Source: a virus
Virus record (IMG/VR): IMGVR_UViG_3300046692_000421
Coordinates: 1 to 23,504 of that record
Strand: one strand, 5' to 3'
Length of the DNA: 23,504 nt
Shown piece by piece: positions 4,914 to 20,421 of the stretch; position 1 is the first letter of the stretch, and each line of letters begins with the position of its first letter. Made by a program: the position numbers and the translations under genes. The notes beneath the pieces are model-generated. The model ran no database searches. It was not told where the DNA came from and worked only from the letters and a program-made list of their open reading frames with translations.

Positions 4914-5120
4914 ATGACCGACTCTTCCGAACTGCAAGGCGAGATAACCGCCCTCTGCTGCTTTGTGGGTGCCTTGGCATCCACCCTGCCCCTGTCTTCC
5001 CAGATGAGGCTCTGGCCTGCGTTCGAGCAGAAGGCAAGTCAGTTGCGTGATCAGTTGAGCGATGAAGCTCTGCGCGGCTTCGAGCAGGCGACGATCTCGC
5101 TCAGTTCGAAGCGCGGTTAG
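4914..5120 (+). CDS. 68-residue small phage protein, antisense between cro and cII
   Basis: MTDSSELQGEITALCCFVGA... is a 68-residue mostly helical protein with start at ATG 4914 and AAGGA eight bases upstream. Its stop overlaps the stop of cro on the other strand (TTAG), so the genes are tail to tail. It resembles small conserved proteins I have seen in Pseudomonas genomes and phages, but I cannot name a function. It lies on the strand opposite the PR transcript, exactly in the stretch a PRE-type transcript towards cI would cover, so it may be made when lysogeny is chosen. That link is inference. Confidence 0.65.
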   Translation: MTDSSELQGEITALCCFVGALASTLPLSSQMRLWPAFEQKASQLRDQLSDEALRGFEQATISLSSKRG

Positions 5121-5317
5121 GCAGCGGTCTTGCGTGCTGGAATTGGGCGAATCTCATTTGCCTGGATCGATCCGTCGTCCATCAAGGTGATGGAGATGGT
5201 CCGATTTGAACGATGCATTTGAGATACGGCGCTTTGCTGGATACCCAGAGCCTTGGCGAGATCGCTCTGGGTTCCGTGCGAGGACAGGTATTCCTCAAGG
5301 GATACGGTATTCATCAT
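5117..5317 (-). CDS. cro: Cro-like repressor
   Basis: A 66-residue protein read from ATG 5315-5317 (GGAG eight bases upstream; a second ATG follows directly). GTQSDLAKALGIQQSAVSQMHRSNR is a helix-turn-helix with the Q-SAV recognition helix. It is followed by ISITLMDDGSIQANEIRPIPARK, which matches the beta-strand/dimer part of lambda Cro (R-x-I-x-I-T-x-x-x-D-G-S-x-x-A-x-E-x-x-P-x-P). First gene of the leftward operon, directly under PR. It should bind the five AGCASTGCT operators and shut down PR, PL and cI transcription. Confidence 0.9.
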   Translation of the reverse strand: MMNTVSLEEYLSSHGTQSDLAKALGIQQSAVSQMHRSNRTISITLMDDGSIQANEIRPIPARKTAA

Positions 5318-5343
5318 CTGAGGTCTCCGGTGGATTTTCGGAG

Positions 5344-5373
5344 ATATTAGCACTGCTGTTTTACAATAAACAA
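5344..5373 (-). promoter_or_regulatory. PR-type promoter for cro operon
   Basis: On the minus strand TTGTTT (5373-5368) is followed after 18 bp by TAATAT (5349-5344). The first operator core (5349-5357) lies in the spacer next to the -10, so repressor binding would block polymerase directly. Cro begins 27 bases downstream. Confidence 0.75.
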
Positions 5374-5417
5374 GGATTTGATTAGCAGTGCTGTTTGCGT
5401 AAATAACAGCTGTGCTA
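5347..5417. promoter_or_regulatory. Right operators (three CI/Cro sites)
   Basis: Three copies of the operator TTAGCASTGCTGTT: 5347-5361 (core AGCACTGCT 5349-5357), 5382-5396 (core AGCAGTGCT 5384-5392), and an inverted, slightly diverged copy at 5403-5417 (core AGCTGTGCT 5408-5416). Core centres are 35 and 24 bp apart. The 9-bp core is palindromic around one base. The same sequence recurs at 8186-8219. The cI promoter (PRM) must lie here too; TTGATT (5378) with TAAATA (5400) is a weak candidate. Confidence 0.85.
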
Positions 5418-5430
5418 CTTAATCACGCGC

Positions 5431-6240
5431 ATGAGAAAACCTATCCGAACCCCACTGAATCCTGAGCAGTTGGCCGACGCCGAGCGCCTGAAGAAGGCGT
5501 ATTTGGAAAAGGTCGCTGAATCGAAAGCCAAAGGCGAAAAGCCGGCGCTCAACCAAAGTGAAGTTGGCGAGAAATGCGGTTGGAATTCTCCGCAGAGCAC
5601 GGTTAGCCAATACCTCAATGGAAAGGTTGCCCTCAACCTCGATGCACTGCTCAAGCTCGCAGATGTGCTGGGGATTAAAGAGCCGTGGAAGATCAGCCCG
5701 ACTCTGGCTGGCGGACTCAAGCGCGTTGCAGCGATTTCCTCAACTCCTAACGGATCCGCGAACGCTGCAAATACGCCCTTCCCGGTCGGTGGTGACGCCG
5801 AAGCTGCCGAGGACAAATACGCTCACGTCCCTCAGCTCACTGCGAGAGCTGCTGCCGGGCTTGGCTCAGAGAACCCGCACGTCGAATCCAACACGACCTT
5901 GGCGTTTAAGCGGGACTGGCTGCGCACCAAGGGAGCCAAGGCTGAAAACCTGTTGGTGATCTACGCCGAGGGCGAAAGCATGTGGCCGACGATCAACGAC
6001 CACGATGTGCTCCTGGTGGACAAGTCGAAAATCGACCCAGCCGACGGCCATGTCTTCGTTCTGTCCAGCACCGACAAGGGTGCGATCGTGAAGCGCCTGG
6101 TGCAGTCGCCTTTAGGTGGCTGGATCATCCGGAGCGACAACGAGGACAAGACTGAGTACGGAGATTTGCTGCTATCGCGGAGCGACGTGAACGAGCACCG
6201 CATAATTGGGCGCGTGATCTGGCGTGGCGGCGATCTGTAG
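5431..6240 (+). CDS. cI: CI-type prophage repressor, S24/LexA-like self-cleaving
   Basis: A 269-residue repressor. Residues ~38-64 are the HTH (LNQSEVGEKCGWNSPQSTVSQYLNGK). The C-terminal half is an S24 peptidase domain: cleavage site Ala-Gly at 142-143 (TARAAAGLG), catalytic Ser183 in GESMWPTI and catalytic Lys221 in AIVKRLV. RecA-stimulated autocleavage and SOS induction are therefore expected. It lies divergent from cro and should hold PR and PL silent through the shared operators. No Shine-Dalgarno sequence precedes ATG 5431, so the message may be leaderless or have a very short leader, as for lambda cI from PRM. No obvious terminator follows. Confidence 0.93.
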   Translation: MRKPIRTPLNPEQLADAERLKKAYLEKVAESKAKGEKPALNQSEVGEKCGWNSPQSTVSQYLNGKVALNLDALLKLADVLGIKEPWKISPTLAGGLKRVAAISSTPNGSANAANTPFPVGGDAEAAEDKYAHVPQLTARAAAGLGSENPHVESNTTLAFKRDWLRTKGAKAENLLVIYAEGESMWPTINDHDVLLVDKSKIDPADGHVFVLSSTDKGAIVKRLVQSPLGGWIIRSDNEDKTEYGDLLLSRSDVNEHRIIGRVIWRGGDL

Positions 6241-6393: not shown

Positions 6394-6432
6394 CGCTCTG
6401 TAAGAGCGTCGGCCTCAGGGGGTGCACCCCCT
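6394..6432 (+). other. Two leader hairpins upstream of the DUF3800 gene
   Basis: CGCTCT-GTA-AGAGCG (6394-6408) and the perfect 16-bp palindrome AGGGGGTGCACCCCCT (6417-6432) lie in the ~110-nt leader. No T-tract follows the second, so it is not a standard terminator. With no clear Shine-Dalgarno before ATG 6452, the hairpins may limit or regulate translation. Confidence 0.55.
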
Positions 6433-6451
6433 CATTTCTAATCCGCTTTCT

Positions 6452-7114
6452 ATGACGAAACTTTTCATTTTCTTGGACGAAAGCGGAGATCTTGGTTGGA
6501 AATTCGACCAGCCCTATCGGGATGGCGGCTCCAGTCGATACCTCACGATATCTGCCCTCCTGGCCTCTGAGCAATCAGTACGATTGCCTGGTCGTGTCAT
6601 GCGCAAGCTATACGATCGATTCAAATGGCCTACCGATAAAGAGAAAAAATGGGCTCGCATGGAGCCAGAGGAGCGCATCGAATTTGCCCGACTCGCCGCG
6701 AAACTCTGCGCTGGCAACGCCGGCAGCATTCAATACGTCTCGATTACCGCAAAGAAAGAAAACGTGATGCCCCATATCAGGCGGGATCCGAACAAGCTTT
6801 ATAACTACATGATCGGGATGCTTCTACTCGACCACATGTCCAGGGTCGATGAGGTGATATTCGCGCCGGATGATCGTAGCGTTAAGGTAAGGAGCGGCAA
6901 CAGTCTTCACGACTACCTCCAAACTCAGCTGTGGATGGAGAGAGATGTTGCTACCGAGCTAAAAACTCTTCCTTGCGACAGTGCGAAAAATCTCTGCGTC
7001 CAGTTCGCCGACATGCTGTCAGGCGTCGCTCAGAGTCATTACGAAGATCGCAGCTCTGAACCTCTGAGAACGCTGGCAAGACACTTCAGGCCTTTTTTGA
7101 TTTACAACCGCTGA
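6452..7114 (+). CDS. DUF3800 family protein in rex-like position
   Basis: A 220-residue protein beginning MTKLFIFLDESGDLGW. The N-terminal hydrophobic strand followed by DESGD is the signature of DUF3800, a family considered to have an RNase H-like fold with acidic metal-binding residues. Near the C-terminus CVQFADMLSGVAQSHYED gives the second conserved acidic segment (QxADxxxG). Length fits the family. It sits between cI and the left operators on the cI strand, like lambda rexA, but has its own strong promoter and a terminator 4 bp after the stop. DUF3800 genes are frequent in prophages and defence-type islands; a nuclease or exclusion function here is a hypothesis. The start lacks a ribosome binding site. 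Confidence 0.82.
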   Translation: MTKLFIFLDESGDLGWKFDQPYRDGGSSRYLTISALLASEQSVRLPGRVMRKLYDRFKWPTDKEKKWARMEPEERIEFARLAAKLCAGNAGSIQYVSITAKKENVMPHIRRDPNKLYNYMIGMLLLDHMSRVDEVIFAPDDRSVKVRSGNSLHDYLQTQLWMERDVATELKTLPCDSAKNLCVQFADMLSGVAQSHYEDRSSEPLRTLARHFRPFLIYNR

Positions 7115-7775: not shown

Positions 7776-7799
7776 AGCCCGCCACGTGCGGGCTTTTTT
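7776..7799 (+). terminator. Intrinsic terminator after zinc-ribbon gene
   Basis: AGCCCGC, loop CACGT, GCGGGCT and T6. It begins 17 bases after the stop and shares the tail GGCTTTTTTGTGTCCGG with the terminator at 4288-4313. Confidence 0.9.
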
Positions 7800-7835
7800 G
7801 TGTCCGGCTATTGCCATCCGTTTGGATCCTTTCTA

Positions 7836-7851
7836 CTGTATATCCATACAG
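7836..7851 (+). promoter_or_regulatory. LexA (SOS) box upstream of the DUF1654 gene
   Basis: CTGTATATCCATACAG matches the gammaproteobacterial LexA consensus CTGT-N8-ACAG in all eight fixed positions, with the favoured TATA/AT-rich centre. It lies 18 bases before the ATG, over the likely core promoter (for example TTGGAT 7822 with CATACA 7845). The gene should be repressed by LexA and induced by DNA damage. Confidence 0.88.
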
Positions 7852-7869
7852 CTAACCAAGGAGGACCAC

Positions 7870-8121
7870 ATGGCCAAGCAGAAACCCCAGACACCCGCAG
7901 AACCCACTTCCTACGAATTACTCGGCATGCGCGTACAGCGGGCGATCAACACGCCCAGGGCGCAGACCTCAAAGTCCGTTCTTCTGGAGCGATCCGCGAA
8001 TGACGATCCGGCTGACTGGGATCGCATCCTTGACGAGATCGCCGAAAACGACAACGTCACCATTGCCCATCGCGACGACGGCCTGATCCAGCTGTTTTGG
8101 ACGGTGCCAAAAGAAGATTGA
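7870..8121 (+). CDS. DUF1654 family protein, SOS-controlled
   Basis: An 83-residue acidic protein, start ATG 7870 with AAGGAGG six bases upstream. TSYELLGMRVQRAINTPRAQ, then DWDRILDEIAENDNVTI and a closing strand pair DGLIQLFWTVP, match the Pseudomonas-typical DUF1654 family in order and length. The family's function is unknown to me. The perfect LexA box upstream ties it to DNA damage, and its position between the cI cargo and the left operators invites a role in induction or in the host SOS response; that is speculation. A terminator follows 16 bases after the stop. Confidence 0.85.
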   Translation: MAKQKPQTPAEPTSYELLGMRVQRAINTPRAQTSKSVLLERSANDDPADWDRILDEIAENDNVTIAHRDDGLIQLFWTVPKED

Positions 8122-8183: not shown

Positions 8184-8221
8184 TTAGCAGTGCTGTTTAC
8201 AATGAATATCAGCAGTGCTAA
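8184..8221. promoter_or_regulatory. Left operators (two CI/Cro sites)
   Basis: TTAGCAGTGCTGTTT at 8184-8198 (core 8186-8194), and an inverted copy with core AGCAGTGCT at 8211-8219, centres 25 bp apart. The first copy and its right flank (TTTACAAT) also resemble the operator region at 5344-5367, so the two control regions look derived from one another. One site abuts the PL -35 and the other covers the spacer up to the -10. Confidence 0.85.
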
Positions 8222-8224
8222 TTT
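8196..8224 (+). promoter_or_regulatory. PL-type early promoter
   Basis: TTTACA (8196-8201), 17 bp, TAATTT (8219-8224), interleaved with the two left operators. It drives the rightward operon starting with the leader at about 8232. A TAATAT also lies on the minus strand at 8186-8181 but has no good -35. Confidence 0.75.
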
Positions 8225-8569: not shown

Positions 8570-8755
8570 ATGAGCCTGAAAGATCAGGGCTATCGCTTCT
8601 GCGTCAGCCCGAATAGGCAAGACGCCAGATGGCTTGCTCCGAACATCTGGCAAGCGATGCACGCCGACTGGATCGATGTGACGGACTGGTCCAGTGAGAA
8701 GCTGGTCGCGTTCGTGACGCCGGAGCCACAACAGAAAGAGCTGTTCGCAGCATGA
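8570..8755 (+). CDS. 61-residue first gene of the PL operon
   Basis: MSLKDQGYRFCVSPNRQDAR... with GGAGG about ten bases before ATG 8570. It is acidic and Trp-rich in the middle (NIWQAMHADWIDVTDW). First gene after the structured leader, so probably made immediately on induction. I recognise no family; small leading PL-operon proteins often act on host functions, but nothing in the sequence shows this. Confidence 0.65.
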   Translation: MSLKDQGYRFCVSPNRQDARWLAPNIWQAMHADWIDVTDWSSEKLVAFVTPEPQQKELFAA

Positions 8756-8815
8756 CAATTTCACTGGCTGGCCTTGGCGACAGGGCCAGACGGGAAATCA
8801 ACCGGAGTCAGCAGC

Positions 8816-9088
8816 ATGCAAATAAACCAGAAGAAAACAGTCCAGGTCGATGTGACCTTGCTCAAGTTGCACCTCAAGGTAAGCGACCGATTCACCGCAG
8901 GCTTGGTCGATGCGCAGGGCGATGAAGTTGGAAGCTTTGAAGGCTACGTGCCTGACTTCTTTCCCGGCGATCACTACGGCGACTACGTGATGCTGGATAT
9001 AGATCTGGAAACGGGCCAGATCAAGAACTGGAAGAAGCCCGCGGCGGATGACATCGAAAAGATGCTCGATGCCGACGACGAAGAATGA
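8816..9088 (+). CDS. 90-residue early phage protein
   Basis: Start ATG 8816 with GGAG eight bases upstream. The protein reads MQINQKKTVQVDVTLLKLHLKVSD..., alternating strands (QVDVTLLKLHLKV, YVMLDIDLETGQI) ending in a strongly acidic tail (DDIEKMLDADDEE). GDHYGDYVMLDIDLETGQI suggests a small all-beta fold. I associate similar proteins with Pseudomonas phages but know no function. It lies 60 bases after the previous gene in the same operon. Confidence 0.7.
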   Translation: MQINQKKTVQVDVTLLKLHLKVSDRFTAGLVDAQGDEVGSFEGYVPDFFPGDHYGDYVMLDIDLETGQIKNWKKPAADDIEKMLDADDEE

Positions 9089-9098
9089 ACCATCACTC

Positions 9099-9142
9099 CT
9101 GCGCATTCACAGAGTGCGCAGTGGGATGCGGAAGACCGCATC
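9099..9142 (+). other. Two tandem hairpins before the alginate-lyase-like gene
   Basis: CTGCGCA/TGCGCAG (9099-9105 with 9115-9121, nine-base loop) and GATGCGG-AAGA-CCGCATC (9125-9142) are two perfect 7-bp stems three bases apart. No T-run follows. They lie in a 110-base gap and could be RNA-processing, stability or antitermination structures. Confidence 0.55.
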
Positions 9143-9198
9143 ACCGTTGGAAGGCAATCGTGCCAGGCCAATGATCTTTATCGTCAGGAGTAGTAACC

Positions 9199-9873
9199 AT
9201 GACTGTAAACATCAGCAATCTTACGATCGCAACACCGGTAGCAACATCCGCAACCAACCCGGTTGCACTTGAGCTCAACGGAGCCCAAGCCATTGCGCAG
9301 TTCCCCAGCGTTGTGACGGTCCTCCCGGACGGCTCGCTGCAACTGTCCGCGCCTACCAAGGGCGCTTCTAGCAAGAGCACACACCGAACCCGATGCGAAT
9401 GGAAAGAGTCGATCTACTGGTCGCTCGCCAGTGCTTCCGAACACATCAACTATCAAGAGATGACCGTGACAAAGGTCAACTCTGCTCAGAAGGTCGTCAT
9501 CTCACAGATGCATGTGAAGGGAGACGACAGTCCAGCCATCAAGGTGTTCTGGCAAAAAGGGAACATCACGATGGGCTTCCGCCAGAGCTACAACCAGACA
9601 GACCCGGTCAACACGACGGTGCTTAAGGGCGTTCCGCTCGGCGCGAAATTCAAAGTCACTATCCGCGTAACGTCGTCCGGCATCGCGCGGGTGACGATCG
9701 ACTACAACGGCAATATAGGCACATCGGGCGATCTGCAGCTCGATTCGTCCTGGAACTCACAAGTGTTCGACTTCCACGGCGGTGTCTACAACCAGATCGA
9801 TTTCACTGACGCCACTCCGGCCGAAGATGGCTCGATCTGCATCATCAGTGACCTTGTGATCACCCACGCCTAA
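9199..9873 (+). CDS. PL7 alginate-lyase-like protein
   Basis: A 224-residue all-beta protein with AGGAG eight bases before ATG 9199. Three segments fit the polysaccharide lyase family 7 active site in order: RCEWK (65-69; family R-x-E-x-R), QMH (103-105; family Q-I/V-H) and GGVYNQ (194-199; family YFKAGxYNQ). Candidate catalytic residues are Arg65, Gln103, His105 and Tyr197. Length equals one PL7 jelly-roll domain. PL7 enzymes cut alginate by beta-elimination. There is no signal peptide or tail-attachment domain and the gene is in the early operon, so release would need lysis, or the fold may have another use. The changes S to C, R to K and I/V to M in the motifs make activity uncertain. Confidence 0.72.
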   Translation: MTVNISNLTIATPVATSATNPVALELNGAQAIAQFPSVVTVLPDGSLQLSAPTKGASSKSTHRTRCEWKESIYWSLASASEHINYQEMTVTKVNSAQKVVISQMHVKGDDSPAIKVFWQKGNITMGFRQSYNQTDPVNTTVLKGVPLGAKFKVTIRVTSSGIARVTIDYNGNIGTSGDLQLDSSWNSQVFDFHGGVYNQIDFTDATPAEDGSICIISDLVITHA

Positions 9874-9915
9874 TCAGCTGACAGCCGGGAAAGACCGGCA
9901 CCCTTCCCCCATATC

Positions 9916-9990
9916 GACCGCATCAGCAGATGCCAGGCCACCTTCACGGTGGGTTTGGTCACCCGCGTCTGGCATCTGACTAATGCGGTC
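9916..9990 (+). other. 75-nt branched hairpin element
   Basis: GACCGCAT (9916-9923) pairs with ATGCGGTC (9983-9990), and AGATGCCAG (9928-9936) with CTGGCATCT (9969-9977), giving 17 perfect pairs with a small internal loop. Inside, CCACC/GGTGG can form an apical hairpin. It ends 22 bases before the next start. No T-tract, so not a terminator. A processed RNA, structured 5' leader or inverted-repeat relic are all possible. Confidence 0.65.
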
Positions 9991-10664: not shown

Positions 10665-10718
10665 CCCCACCCTTTTCAATCGCAGCGCCCCGGTAACGGC
10701 ATGGCGCAAGGAGCTTCC

Positions 10719-11606
10719 GTGTCCGCACATAACCCCGCGCCTGTGGCGCACGAGCAACAGCTTCACATCATTCCACACGCGGCGACCAGCACCAGTGCCC
10801 TCGTGCTGGACGGCGATAGTTTGGACAAGATGATGCGACTGGCTGACGTCATGGCCACCGGCCGCGCAACCTTGCCAAAGCACTTCAACGGAAACTCCGC
10901 CGACTGCTTGGCCGTGGTCATGCAGTCAATGCAATGGAAGATGAACCCCTTCGCCGTCGCGCAGAAAACGCACCTGGTGAACGGCGTCCTCGGCTACGAG
11001 GCCCAGCTCGTGAACGCTGTAATCAGCACCTGCGCGCCAGTCATGGATCGCCTGCATTACGAGTGGTTTGGCGAATGGGAAAAAGTGATCGGAAAGTTCA
11101 CGATCAAGACCGGCGACAAAGGCGAATACCGCGTTCCCGGCTGGAAGATGTCGGACGAAGAAGGCTTGGGCGTCAAGGTCTGGGCAACCTTTCGCGGCGA
11201 GGACGAACCTCGTGTGCTGGAACTACTACTCGCTCAAGCCCGCACCCGCAACAGCACGCTTTGGGCTGACGACCCACGCCAGCAACTGGCCTACCTCGCC
11301 ACCAAGCGCTGGTCCCGCCTCTACTGCCCTGATGTGATCCTCGGCGTTTACAGCCCTGACGAATTGGAGGAAAGCGCCCCCCGCGTTCGCGACGTCTCCC
11401 CGATTCGTGAAGCAGAGGCCGCCGGCCTGCCGCCCTACCCCGACGACAAGCTCGCCGAGAACCTGCCGAAGTGGCGGAAGTCGGTCGACGAGCGCAAGTC
11501 CTCGCCCGAGCACTTGATCGCAACCATCAGCAGCAAATACACCCTGAGCGAGCAGCAGATCGAGCAGATCAAAAACCTCGCGCCCATCGAAGGAGAGTCC
11601 GCATGA
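10719..11606 (+). CDS. recT: RecT-family single-strand annealing recombinase
   Basis: A 295-residue protein. GTG 10719 with AAGGAG directly upstream is preferred to ATG 10701, which lies before that site. The RecT core runs from residue ~35: LVLDGDSLDKMMRLADVMATG, then ADCLAVVMQSMQWKMNPFAVAQKTHLVNGVLGYEAQLVNAVI, and QQLAYLATKRWSRLYCPDVILGVY. These proteins bind ssDNA and anneal complementary strands after exonuclease resection. The next gene encodes the matching YqaJ nuclease, with an ATGA overlap, so the pair forms a Red-like recombination module. The C-terminal ~60 residues are charged and probably flexible, usual for the family. Confidence 0.92.
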   Translation: MSAHNPAPVAHEQQLHIIPHAATSTSALVLDGDSLDKMMRLADVMATGRATLPKHFNGNSADCLAVVMQSMQWKMNPFAVAQKTHLVNGVLGYEAQLVNAVISTCAPVMDRLHYEWFGEWEKVIGKFTIKTGDKGEYRVPGWKMSDEEGLGVKVWATFRGEDEPRVLELLLAQARTRNSTLWADDPRQQLAYLATKRWSRLYCPDVILGVYSPDELEESAPRVRDVSPIREAEAAGLPPYPDDKLAENLPKWRKSVDERKSSPEHLIATISSKYTLSEQQIEQIKNLAPIEGESA

Positions 11607-13255
11607 AGATCCATAACGTAGCTCAGGGCAGCGCTGAATGGCACGCCCTCCGCGCCAAGTACTTCACCGCCTCCGAAGCCCCGGCAATGATGGGCGCTTC
11701 GAAGTTTCAAAGCCGCACCGATCTGCTGACCTCGAAGAAAACCGGCATCGCGCCAGAGGTAACGCCGAATCAGCAGCGCATCTTCGACAAAGGCCACGCC
11801 ACCGAAGCATCGGCCCGCCCCTTGGTTGAGGTGAAGATCGGCGAGGAGCTCTACCCAATCGTCGGTACCAGCGGCAACCTATTGGCCTCGATGGACGGCG
11901 CGACGATGCTCGGCGATACGCTGTTTGAGCACAAACTCTGGAATGAGTCGCTCGTCGCCCAGGTGCGCGCCGAACAGCTCGATCCGCATTACTACTGGCA
12001 GCTTGAGCAACAGCTGCTGGTGAGCGGCGCAGAACGTGTGATCTTTGTCTGCTCCGACGGCACCGAGCAAAACTTCGTTTCGATGGAGTATCGCCCCGTC
12101 GCTGGGCGTGCTGAGCAACTGGTCGAAGGGTGGAAGCAGTTCGAAGCCGACCTTGCCTCTTTCGAAATGGCTGACGCGCCATCTATTGTCGTCGGCAAAG
12201 CACCTGACGAGCTGCCTGCGTTGCGCATTGAGCTGACCGGCATGGTGACTCAGAGCAACCTCAAGGTGTTCGAGGACTCGGCGCTAGCGGTCATCGACTC
12301 CGTGAAAACTACGCTGACGACTGATCAGGACTTCGCCGACGCCAAGAAAGCCGTTAAGTGGTGCGTCGACGTAGAAGACGCTGTAGCTGCCGCGAAAAAG
12401 CAGGCGCTGTCGCAGACCCAAACCATCGACCAACTGTTTTCCTCGTTGGATCGAATCAGCGCACATGCCCGCGAAACTCGGCTGAAGGTCGACAAGCTCG
12501 TCAAGGCTCAAGAGCTGCTGGTGAAGACCAACATCAAGCAGAAAGCTGAAAATGCCCTGGCTGAGCACGTCGCCGCCATCAACAAAACTCTTGGTCGCGT
12601 TGTGCTGCAACCGGTGGCGTCTGACTTTGCCGGCGCGATGAAAAACAAGCGCACCATCGCCAGCCTGCAAGATGCGGTAGACACCGAGCTGGCCCGCGCG
12701 AAGATCGACGCCAGCCAAAAGGCCGACGCGATCCGCCTCAACCTCGCCAGCCTGGCTGAGCTGGCCGTCGACCACAACTTCCTGTTCAACGACATTCAGC
12801 AGCTGGTCATGAAGGCCAACGATGACCTGGTGACGTTGATCAAGGTCCGCATAGACGAGCACAAGAAAGCCGAGGAGGACCGGCTGGAGAAGCAGCGCCA
12901 GCAGATCCGCGAGGAAGAAGCGAAAAAGCTCGCCGATGCTGAAGCCGCGAGGGTTGCTGAGCAAAATAAGGCCGCTGAGCAAGCAGCACCCGCCCCATCG
13001 GCTTCGACGCCAACGCCTAAACCCCAAACTGCTGCGCGGGTATCGACGGTCGCGCCATCAGCCAAAGTGCCGCCGAAGCCGACGAAGATGGAAGCCCATG
13101 TGCCAGACCTGTCAGTCCTGGTCAAAGCCGTCTATGAAGGCCGGGCGCCTCTCTCTGTGCTCACCGTCAACTGGGGTGCGCTCGACGACCTCGTTCACAT
13201 CCACGGCGAAGAGTTCAGCATGGACGGGGTCGTCCTGCAGCAGGTGGCAGCATGA
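11603..13255 (+). CDS. YqaJ-type viral exonuclease with long coiled-coil extension
   Basis: A 550-residue protein whose ATG overlaps the recT stop and follows AGGAGAG. Residues 1-~210 are a YqaJ/lambda-Exo-like PD-(D/E)XK nuclease: GSAEWHALRAKYFTASEAPAMMG, then FDKGHATEASARPLVE (Glu), LLASMDGA (metal-binding Asp) and LFEHKLW (ExK). The nuclease would resect 5' strands to load RecT. Residues ~220-480 are a long helical, coiled-coil region rich in Ala/Lys/Glu, then a Pro/Ala linker (~485-520) and a short C-terminal domain. The tail more than doubles the usual nuclease length; it may be a multimer or partner-binding module or an old fusion. Confidence 0.88.
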   Translation: MKIHNVAQGSAEWHALRAKYFTASEAPAMMGASKFQSRTDLLTSKKTGIAPEVTPNQQRIFDKGHATEASARPLVEVKIGEELYPIVGTSGNLLASMDGATMLGDTLFEHKLWNESLVAQVRAEQLDPHYYWQLEQQLLVSGAERVIFVCSDGTEQNFVSMEYRPVAGRAEQLVEGWKQFEADLASFEMADAPSIVVGKAPDELPALRIELTGMVTQSNLKVFEDSALAVIDSVKTTLTTDQDFADAKKAVKWCVDVEDAVAAAKKQALSQTQTIDQLFSSLDRISAHARETRLKVDKLVKAQELLVKTNIKQKAENALAEHVAAINKTLGRVVLQPVASDFAGAMKNKRTIASLQDAVDTELARAKIDASQKADAIRLNLASLAELAVDHNFLFNDIQQLVMKANDDLVTLIKVRIDEHKKAEEDRLEKQRQQIREEEAKKLADAEAARVAEQNKAAEQAAPAPSASTPTPKPQTAARVSTVAPSAKVPPKPTKMEAHVPDLSVLVKAVYEGRAPLSVLTVNWGALDDLVHIHGEEFSMDGVVLQQVAA

Positions 13256-18339: not shown

Positions 18340-20421
18340 ATGTCCGCGCATCAGAAAAAACACCCCTTCGATTTCAAAACGCAGTACGGCCTTGGCTTCG
18401 ACCCGCAAGACGATGAGATCGTCGTGGACTTCTTCTGCGGCGGTGGCGGCGCCGGTACCGGGCTGGAAATGGGGCTGGGCCGCAAAGTCAGCGTGGCGAA
18501 GAACCACAGCGCCAAAGCAATCAGCATGCACACCATCAATCACCCGGGTGCAAAACACTTCACCACCGACGTGTTCGAGGGTGATCCGGATACGGAGTGC
18601 AGCGGCAAGGCGGTTGGCTGGTTCCACATGTCGCCGGATTGCACGCACCACAGCCAGGCGGCAGGCGGCCAGCCACGTAAGCGCGAGATTCGCAACCTGT
18701 CGTGGATTGGCCTGAAGTGGGCTGGCAAGAAAAAGCCCCGCGTCATCAGCCTGGAAAACGTGAAGCAGATCCTGCAGTGGGGTCCGCTGATCGCCAAACG
18801 CGACAAGGAAAGCGGACGGGCCATCAAGCTTGTGACCGTGCTGAACGCCAAAGGGAAGGAAGTCATCGAGAAGGTTGTTGCGGCACCTGCCGAGGTTGTC
18901 CCGGTCGGCCAGCAATTTCTGGTTCCTGATCCAAAGCGGCGCGGCACCACCTGGCGCCGGTTCGTACAGCTATTGGAAGGCATGGGCTACGCCGTCGAGT
19001 GGCGTGTTATCAAGGCCTGCGACTTTGGCGCGCCGACCAGCCGGGAGCGTCTATTTATGATCGCCCGTTCCGACGGTCAGCCGATTGTGTGGCCAGAGCC
19101 GACACACGCCAAGAAGCCCGCGAAAGGTCAGCAGAAATACCGCACCGCCGCCGAGTGCATCGATTTCAGCGATCTGGGCAAAAGCATCTTCGGACGAAAG
19201 GATGAGTTGGCCGATGCCACCAAGCGGCGCATAGCCAAAGGCATGAAGAAGTTCGTTATCGACAACCCTATCCCCTTCATCGTACCGATCGCGAACTGGT
19301 CAACTGAGGCGGTGCAGTCGATGGATGAGCCGCTGCGCGCTGTGACTTCATACCCTAAAGGCGGTTCGTTCTCTGTAGTCAGCCCGGTGATCGCGCCAGC
19401 AACCCACCAGGGCAGCGACCGCATCAACGACCCGCTCGAACCTCTGCCGACCGTGACCTGCGCCAACCGGGGCGAACTGACATTGATCAGCCCGATTCTG
19501 GCCGGGGTCGGCGGCAGAGCTGGACAAACCGAGCCACGCTCAGCCGCTGATCCGATGTATACCGTGACGGCAAAGGCAGACACCGCCATCGCTTCAGCGC
19601 ACCTGGTCAAATTCCGGTTCGACGATGAAGGCAAAGCGCTGGACGATCCACTTCCCACGATAACCAGCGGCGGCAACTACCAGCGCCCAGCAGGCGCCGC
19701 CCACGCCATGGGCATCGCCACCGCATTCATGGCGCAAATGAATGGCGGTTTCAACACCACCGACGCGAAAAGCCTCAATGACCCGATGACCACGGTGACG
19801 AATACCGGCAGTCAGCAGCAACTGGTGACGGCAAGTCTCCTGCACCTGCGAGGTAATTGTGATGCCAGGGCGGCGGATGAACCCTTGCATACTGTCAGTG
19901 CCGGCGGCACCCACCACGGCCTGATGACTGCCTTCATGGAACGTCAGTTCGGCACCAGCGTTGGCCAGGCACTGACCGACCCATCGCCGACGATCACTGC
20001 CGGTGGTGACGGAAAGAGTTCGCTAGTCAGCTTTGAGCTTTCGCCCGAGCATGAAGAAGGCGCGCTGCGGGTTGCTGCATTCCTGATCAGCTACTACGGC
20101 ACAGAGAACATGAGCACCTGCGATCAGCCGGCGCCCACGATCACGACCAAGGATCGGCTGGGCCTGGTCATCGTCATGGTAAAGGGCACGCCCTATGTGA
20201 TCGTCGATATCAGGCTGCGGATGCTGCAACCGGCTGAGCTGTACCGGGCGCAGGGATTCCCACCGGACTACATCATCACGCACGGCGCCGACGGCAAGCC
20301 GTTCACGAAGACCGAGCAGGTCCACATGTGCGGCAACAGCGTAAGCCCGCCGCCGATGGCCGCCCTCGCCCGCGCCAACGACCCATGGCGCGCCGCTGAA
20401 CGCCAAGCCGTCGCCGCCTGA
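18340..20421 (+). CDS. C5 cytosine DNA methyltransferase with repeat-type target domain
   Basis: A 693-residue enzyme, GAGGAG five bases before ATG 18340. Motif I DFFCGGGGAGTGLE (30-43), motif IV SPDCTHHS with catalytic Cys101, motif VI SLENV (137-141), motif VIII-like TSRERLFMIAR (233-243), motif IX/X at 629-672 (LQPAELYRAQGFPPDY, then MCGNSVSPPPMAAL). Between ~327 and ~612 lie about eight repeats starting D/E-P-x-x-T-V/I-T. S-adenosylmethionine supplies the methyl group. In phages such enzymes guard the genome against host restriction. No cognate endonuclease gene is adjacent, so it is likely a solitary enzyme. Confidence 0.92.
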   Translation: MSAHQKKHPFDFKTQYGLGFDPQDDEIVVDFFCGGGGAGTGLEMGLGRKVSVAKNHSAKAISMHTINHPGAKHFTTDVFEGDPDTECSGKAVGWFHMSPDCTHHSQAAGGQPRKREIRNLSWIGLKWAGKKKPRVISLENVKQILQWGPLIAKRDKESGRAIKLVTVLNAKGKEVIEKVVAAPAEVVPVGQQFLVPDPKRRGTTWRRFVQLLEGMGYAVEWRVIKACDFGAPTSRERLFMIARSDGQPIVWPEPTHAKKPAKGQQKYRTAAECIDFSDLGKSIFGRKDELADATKRRIAKGMKKFVIDNPIPFIVPIANWSTEAVQSMDEPLRAVTSYPKGGSFSVVSPVIAPATHQGSDRINDPLEPLPTVTCANRGELTLISPILAGVGGRAGQTEPRSAADPMYTVTAKADTAIASAHLVKFRFDDEGKALDDPLPTITSGGNYQRPAGAAHAMGIATAFMAQMNGGFNTTDAKSLNDPMTTVTNTGSQQQLVTASLLHLRGNCDARAADEPLHTVSAGGTHHGLMTAFMERQFGTSVGQALTDPSPTITAGGDGKSSLVSFELSPEHEEGALRVAAFLISYYGTENMSTCDQPAPTITTKDRLGLVIVMVKGTPYVIVDIRLRMLQPAELYRAQGFPPDYIITHGADGKPFTKTEQVHMCGNSVSPPPMAALARANDPWRAAERQAVAA

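Follow-up and report, generated by a model that had tools for sequence, protein, structure and literature searches.

Why does a temperate phage keep a polysaccharide lyase of the alginate lyase type, without an export signal, among its early genes? This question is raised by a gene at positions 9199-9873 of a virus record of 23,504 bases, referred to below as the window, i.e. the whole stretch of DNA that was analysed. The window comes from a temperate Pseudomonas phage of lambda-like type; of the phage records, Medea1 matches it best, with 81% identity over 9% of the window. The features considered are the following:

5117..5353, minus strand: Cro-position regulator, divergent from cI (phrog_35, 1.4e-12)
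5347..5392, no strand assigned: OR operators between cro and cI, at 5347-5357 (one mismatch) and 5382-5392 (exact)
5431..6240, plus strand: CI-type repressor with HTH and S24 peptidase domain (PF00717, 5.9e-14; phrog_4, 5.4e-40)
7786..8121, plus strand: DUF1654 protein gene, between cI and OL (PF07867, 1.3e-26)
8184..8219, plus strand: OL operators, TTAGCAGTGCT at 8184-8194 and TCAGCAGTGCT at 8209-8219
8196..8224, plus strand: putative PL promoter, TTTACA-N17-TAATTT, read by eye; the OL operators overlap it
8570..8755, plus strand: first small predicted gene behind OL, 61 aa, no PHROG match, similar ORF in viral locus L228
8816..9088, plus strand: second small predicted gene behind OL (ORF listed from 8774)
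9088..9144, plus strand: structured leader of two hairpins, 57 bases, ending 54 bases before the PL7 start codon
9145..9173, plus strand: third leader hairpin, from the fold only, the alignment there being unreliable
9199..9873, plus strand: PL7-type polysaccharide lyase gene, 224 aa, ATG start, no signal peptide
10701..11606, plus strand: RecT-family annealing protein (PF03837, 2e-40; PHROG)
11603..13255, plus strand: YqaJ/RecE-like recombination nuclease (PF09588, 3.1e-11; phrog_7655, 3.6e-224)

The enzyme identity of the gene product is well supported. The initial annotation had read the frame at 9199-9873 as a single-domain PL7 protein with the motifs RCEWK, QMH and GGVYNQ and had singled out His105 and Tyr197, and its coordinates, motifs and residue numbering proved exact: the motifs start at residues 65, 103 and 194, respectively, and the frame is preceded by a Shine-Dalgarno-like CAGGAG. 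Indeed (i) the profile search that it had proposed as a check aligned residues 3-223 with positions 1-225 of the 225 of Pfam PF08787 (Alginate_lyase2; 3.3e-46, 158 bits against a cut-off of 29.7), i.e. end to end with the whole catalytic domain, as a single domain, (ii) the protein matches phrog_31475 at 1.6e-116, a family labelled 'unknown function', and its sequence matches in the PDB are PA1167 and A1-II', both at about 5e-8, and (iii) an AlphaFold2 model built from 55 sequences (pLDDT 95.3, pTM 0.92) has 1vav, i.e. PA1167, as its best Foldseek match in the PDB (E 1.8e-17), the structural comparison (VIA) with PA1167 giving a Z of 29.0 and 1.8 A over 207 residues at 23% identity. The top rows of both structure searches made with this model are PL7 lyases (beta-sandwich PL7 fold), so that the expected PL7 match was found by structure as well as by profile. 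The PL7 glucuronan lyase 7nde has the same fold (Z 24.4), and the fold thus does not fix the substrate, which is likely to be alginate.

The active site was followed through a clade set of 89 distinct sequences, the window's included, which comprised matches above 150 bits and down to 38% identity (relatives below 150 bits were left out, and duplicate removal reduced 106 sequences to 89). Six positions, R65, E67, Q103, H105, Y197 and Q199, are invariant in 89/89. In an excerpt of PMC9345997, the conserved catalytic residues of PL7 are given as His and Tyr, and the PDB titles of 2zaa and 2zac name mutants of PL7 catalytic residues; H105 aligns with the Q-x-H of PA1167 and A1-II', and Y197 with the Tyr of the third motif. 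The Arg and Glu of the RSELR motif correspond to R65 and E67 in all 89 sequences, the last position of the motif being K in 66, S in 16, T in 6 and M in 1. PA1167, the PL7 alginate lyase of P. aeruginosa (1VAV), resembles the window protein in its single domain, its Q-x-H and its active-site Tyr, whereas the window protein and its clade have RCEW for RSEL and FHGG for FKAG, the Lys of the latter motif being replaced by His in 89/89; by pattern, FKAG is present in 10 of 17 other PL7 paralogues from 14 genomes. The gene is under purifying selection (dN/dS 0.044-0.080 in four pairs with close phage copies), and the protein is predicted from family, fold and active site to be catalytically intact. 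In line with the initial annotation, a signal-peptide-like N-terminus was found by a simple charge/hydrophobicity rule in 0/89 clade sequences, the window protein included. PDB sequence and structure searches returned no solved structure for this clade.

The layout of CI and its operators around the lyase gene is also well supported. The TTAGCAGTGCT-type operator is common to OL and to the cI/cro region, and the lyase gene lies downstream of OL in the direction of PL. An operator search of the window gave 13 matches with at most two mismatches against 5.1 expected, a number reached by 0/100 shuffles; of the 13, those at 5382 and 8184 are exact, and at OR a third, weaker copy follows when read by eye. 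The -10 hexamer of PL is below the threshold of the promoter scan, from whose list the promoter is absent. No rightward terminator-like site is listed by the scan between OL and the lyase gene, which, together with the operators and the gene order, makes the latter the third predicted gene of a lambda-like left operon. The second of the two small genes that precede it (8816..9088) has no Pfam or PHROG match and has similar ORFs in five viral loci; downstream and in the same direction are more small genes without Pfam match, followed by the RecT and nuclease genes. The position among small early genes and not among tail genes that had been claimed for the lyase is thus confirmed: no tail gene was recognised near it, and its neighbours in the window are early genes and not those of a virion-associated depolymerase. 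When read by eye, the translation of CI shows AAAGLG with its Ala-Gly bond, the Ser of GESM and the Lys of IVKR; these are features expected for repressor self-cleavage, of which CI may be capable.

As in the left operon of lambda, cro and cI are divergent, operators are common to OL and OR, and recombination genes lie downstream; unlike lambda, the window has a polysaccharide lyase before the recombination genes and DUF1654 between cI and OL. A DUF3800 protein (6422-7114) is also encoded between cI and OL, where lambda keeps rex; the gene may be one of exclusion or defence. Elsewhere in the window, a C5-cytosine methyltransferase of 693 aa (18340-20421) contains, by eye, many D-P-x-x-T-V/I-T-type repeat segments in its middle part.

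The PL7 clade is a common gene of lambda-like left operons. A scan of IMG/VR with the single PL7 sequence found six loci, and a scan with a 48-row alignment gave 112 confirmed relatives, of which 80 were kept, the six earlier loci included; context was counted in 79 of the 80, L252 being cut at the gene start. An S24 CI gene is present upstream, on the same strand and within 6 kb, in 62/79 viral loci, a DUF1654 gene in 60/79, both in 58 and recombination genes in 24/79; four of the 62 (L242, L245, L246 and L250) are chromosome-type cassettes of class B, described below, in predicted viral contigs. The 17/79 loci without CI include eight on contigs of at least 224 kb, with no repressor match within 6 kb. 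Tail protein matches were found in 0/79 loci and a terminase match in one (L254), with few structural references.

By tblastn, matches were found in 14 of 50,697 phage records. Nine of these belong to P. putida phages and two to Psa21, the others being AH02, Arace01 and an unannotated record; Medea1 gave no match. The jumbo phage Psa21 and P. putida phages such as vB_PpuM-Lauda encode free-standing proteins of the same clade (53% and 37-38% identity, respectively), annotated as 'polysaccharide lyase family 7' or 'hypothetical'. Neither the Psa21 gene, which lies among tRNA genes, nor the Lauda gene has a repressor context; the latter closes a series of small genes and has a minor tail protein gene as its opposite-strand neighbour. 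Same-clade genes are likewise present in viral contigs of 224 to 317 kb (L295, L297-L303), where some adjoin tRNA-like sequence by eye, as annotated in Psa21. In phage AH02, a distant PL7 (26% identity; L011:7998-8855) is encoded between genes annotated NinG and holin and next to others annotated aminohydrolase and esterase, i.e. a lyase near lysis genes.

The lyase gene of the window is preceded by a structured leader, the fold of 9089-9204 having a z-score of -3.8. In 26 sequences, which were picked for showing the leader and were scored against a structure derived from the window sequence, 96.6% of cells are paired and 30 cells are changed on both sides, and pairing falls to 54% or less when the pairing partners are slid. 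The covariation score is 0.222 against 0.120 in shuffles, with 0/500 shuffles as high, related sequences being able to beat shuffles without structure; two weaker pair measures are reached by 9/500 and 14/500 shuffles. A leader model matches the window, which is in its training set, at 6.7e-22, and the other strand at 1.5e-5. The two-hairpin leader is conserved between phage and chromosomal copies of the lyase gene: model matches are present in 14/99 Pseudomonas genomes, directly before the lyase gene in five of the 14 (G057, G058, G088, G094 and G098), the remaining matches being elsewhere and one of them preceding a CsrA-like gene by reading. Since the same leader stands before other genes, a PL7-specific riboswitch was rejected, and the chromosomal copies with both leader and LexA box (e.g. 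L020 and L070) look phage-derived. In the window, no Rfam family was found at the gathering threshold, and Yfr20 near the leader (E 0.48; score 17.1, gathering score 44) was taken as chance. At the centre of L209, in a phage-like region, a CsrA/RsmA-like gene (by reading) has the same hairpin leader. Further structured leaders of the window lie at about 8756-8800, where a second hairpin type, ATTTCACTGGC..GGGCCAGACGGGAAAT, stands before the 8816 gene, and at about 9913-9985, where by eye a long inverted repeat precedes the 10013 gene. The second hairpin type also precedes the lyase gene in several viral loci, its core pattern occurring 26 times in the 80 viral loci. The leaders of early genes look like interchangeable modules reused before different genes.

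In bacterial chromosomes, a clade match at 1e-40 or better was found in 73/398 Pseudomonas genomes, whereas a sample of 293 genomes of the order yielded matches at 1e-20 in only four. The 85 genome loci whose context was classified (71 and 14 from two retrievals) comprise 6 prophage loci, 14 S24-linked loci, 12 loci with both S24 gene and LexA box, 6 with LexA box alone and 47 with neither; the prophage label stands for at least three phage-like neighbours, by which some prophages are missed, and genes were called by ORF length, some neighbours being antisense artefacts. Prophage, S24-linked or LexA-boxed loci thus make up 38/85, a part and no majority, and with 47/85 loci lacking both S24 gene and LexA box, SOS control is not a family rule. 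In random windows taken from the loci with neither sign, a choice that leans towards low counts, an S24 gene was found in 1/376 and a LexA box in 0/376; another S24 control (10/185) was discarded because its windows could overlap the same cI genes. Among 17 other PL7 paralogues in 14 of the same genomes, a LexA box was found in 0/17 and an upstream S24 gene in 0/17. LexA boxes are present in 18/89 distinct upstream regions of the clade, against 0.7% of 20,000 random 300-base windows; of the 18 LexA-boxed loci among the 85 genome loci, 12 have an S24 gene as well. As loci of one lineage are not independent, these linkage counts are not probabilities. Host-to-phage transfer as the sole direction is unsupported: a tree of 151 proteins requires no fewer than 14 switches of the phage/chromosome label, and, 60/148 inner branches being weak, the strong branches force at least five changes for the phage group. 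In Pseudomonas fuscovaginae, a 1972-aa open frame (L015:8853-14771) directly follows the chromosomal PL7 copy, and a relative of this frame is found near PL7 in L019.

Two classes of repressor-linked cassettes bear on the function of the lyase in cells. In class B, TTTAGC-N-GCTA is found at the cI gene start and at the lyase promoter in 13/13 loci, a further such site being found in 1/13 (both strands, loci of 8.8-13 kb). DUF1654 lies between cI and PL7, and the LexA box adjoins the start of DUF1654, about 220 bases before the lyase gene (e.g. DUF1654 at L186:5691-6002), so that it may serve DUF1654 rather than the lyase. The class-B repressors have, by reading, the Ser and the Lys and no clear Ala-Gly bond, and the lyase evolves faster than CI (median dN/dS 0.168 versus 0.066). 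In class A', an S24 gene precedes the lyase gene and ATATGGGA is present at both promoters in 8/10 loci, the exceptions being L157, which is without it, and L141, which has one copy, at PL7 only; L135 and L139 have a TTAGCAG-type site, like that of the window, near both promoters. A remnant resembling a phage integrase end is found in nine class-A' loci (tblastn 9/9; in pieces in L158 and L161; one at the locus edge); its Pfam score is weak (16.9 bits, below the cut-off of 27.1), no other phage-like neighbours being found in these nine loci with the reference set used. The lyase gene is followed by folE (profiled in L155; same cluster in five loci), and of the few neighbours that were profiled, none stood out as a lysis gene. 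Both cI and PL7 are open in the nine loci, with median dN/dS of 0.115 and 0.070, respectively (36 pairs each). These nine loci look like dead prophages that keep cI, PL7 and an integrase remnant. That repressor, operators and lyase gene are retained where the phage is gone, with cI and PL7 under purifying selection, argues for a function of the pair beyond phage replication, one of use to cells.

Altogether, these data suggest that the lyase is made in doomed cells and freed at their burst. The preferred reading, with a probability of roughly 0.57, is that the protein is a polyuronate lyase of the cytosol whose timing would be set by induction or SOS; freed at lysis, it would open the alginate matrix. 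In the lysogen, the phage CI would silence PL7 through the OL operators; upon infection, or upon loss of CI on induction, PL7 would be transcribed immediately, in third place in the left early operon; its product would accumulate in the cytosol through the cycle, without secretion, and would be set free only when the cell lyses; in the surrounding matrix it would then cut alginate, or else a related polyuronate, which would ease the escape of progeny or kin cells. Chromosomal relatives under S24 repressors or near LexA boxes would be expected to be expressed in DNA-damaged cells, which often end in lysis. This reading is built on what the computations establish, namely the family and fold of the protein, its active site, the selection on the gene, the layout of the operators and the recurrent linkage of SOS type; from these we infer the activity, substrate, timing, repressor self-cleavage, release and benefit that it involves. 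Of the interpretation given in the initial annotation, the PL7 fold, the intact active site and the early operon are supported, and its idea of release on lysis would be the best mechanism.

Several points were counted against the preferred reading. Phages usually make released enzymes late, and early transcription would be an odd way to stock a lysate; moreover, 47/85 genome loci are without an SOS sign, the class-B LexA boxes may not act on the lyase gene, the eight contigs of at least 224 kb are without a repressor, the Lauda gene has a tail neighbour, and the class-B lyases have the substitution rates given above. The His in place of the FKAG Lys, the weak score of the integrase remnant and the class-B repressors without a clear Ala-Gly bond also count against it. 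A broader proposal, put forward tentatively and at somewhat less than even odds, is that of a mobile, damage-timed, matrix-opening cassette shared by Pseudomonas and its phages, in which a non-secreted PL7 would repeatedly stand behind a self-cleaving or LexA-type repressor, move between phage early operons and chromosomes, and be kept after the death of the phage because lysing cells release the lyase for kin or virus.

The lyase could instead act early inside the cell, in host take-over, in blocking exopolysaccharide export or in counter-defence against a polyuronate or a look-alike ligand. Its place, third among the predicted genes that follow OL, in the region where the take-over genes of lambda are found, and the recurrence of an upstream CI gene in 62/79 viral loci are consistent with such a role, which is nevertheless unlikely: we know of no cytosolic alginate pool, copies in apparently dead prophages and in phage-free LexA-boxed loci have no infection to serve, and a role confined to the phage is made less likely by the repressor-linked copies that stand alone. 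Still less probable is ordinary accessory cargo, by which the host would use alginate for nutrition or competition, the repressor linkage being a by-product of the phage insertion site. The 47/85 genome loci without SOS sign would fit this, as would the loci in which the lyase gene stands behind an MFS transporter adjoining a cytochrome bo-type operon (both named by reading), and Medea1, which shares parts of the backbone and is absent from the PL7 matches; against it, the lyase has no secretion signal, several unrelated operators are found where the gene is linked to S24 or LexA, and a repressed gene is of little use to a lysogen. Finally, reuse of the jelly-roll fold for binding without catalysis, which the initial annotation had allowed for and to which the variant motif letters (His for the Lys of FKAG) could point, is very improbable, since all six active-site positions are kept in 89/89 sequences down to 38% identity, as would not be expected of a mere binding protein.

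Release of the lyase from doomed cells would differ from the systems already described. Virion-bound exopolysaccharide depolymerases (tail spikes) open a polysaccharide barrier, whereas the lyase of the window is a single-domain protein of an early operon, with no tail gene recognised nearby. In the PrtR/pyocin and AlpR/AlpBCDE systems of pseudomonads, an S24/LexA-like repressor couples cargo to DNA damage, whereas here the cargo is a matrix-type lyase. An alginate lyase associated with a phage of Azotobacter vinelandii was reportedly described by Davidson in 1977, the likeness being a phage-associated activity such as is proposed here. Already known were PL7 lyases and CI operons, as was the presence of PL7 genes in jumbo-phage records. 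Among the matches listed in the open-licence literature, no paper was found that places this clade in early operons of phages or an alginate lyase under SOS control; the combination of PL7 with a CI operon, its frequency in temperate Pseudomonas phages and the repressor-linked chromosomal cassettes were not found in the open papers searched and appear to be new.

Phage enzymes that attack the biofilm matrix are usually sought on the virion, and the clade supplies further lyases, without a solved structure of their own among the PDB matches. If the preferred reading is true, prophage induction and SOS death would release matrix-degrading enzymes, DNA damage would be tied to the opening of biofilms, and the beneficiary, be it the phage, kin cells or both, would become testable.
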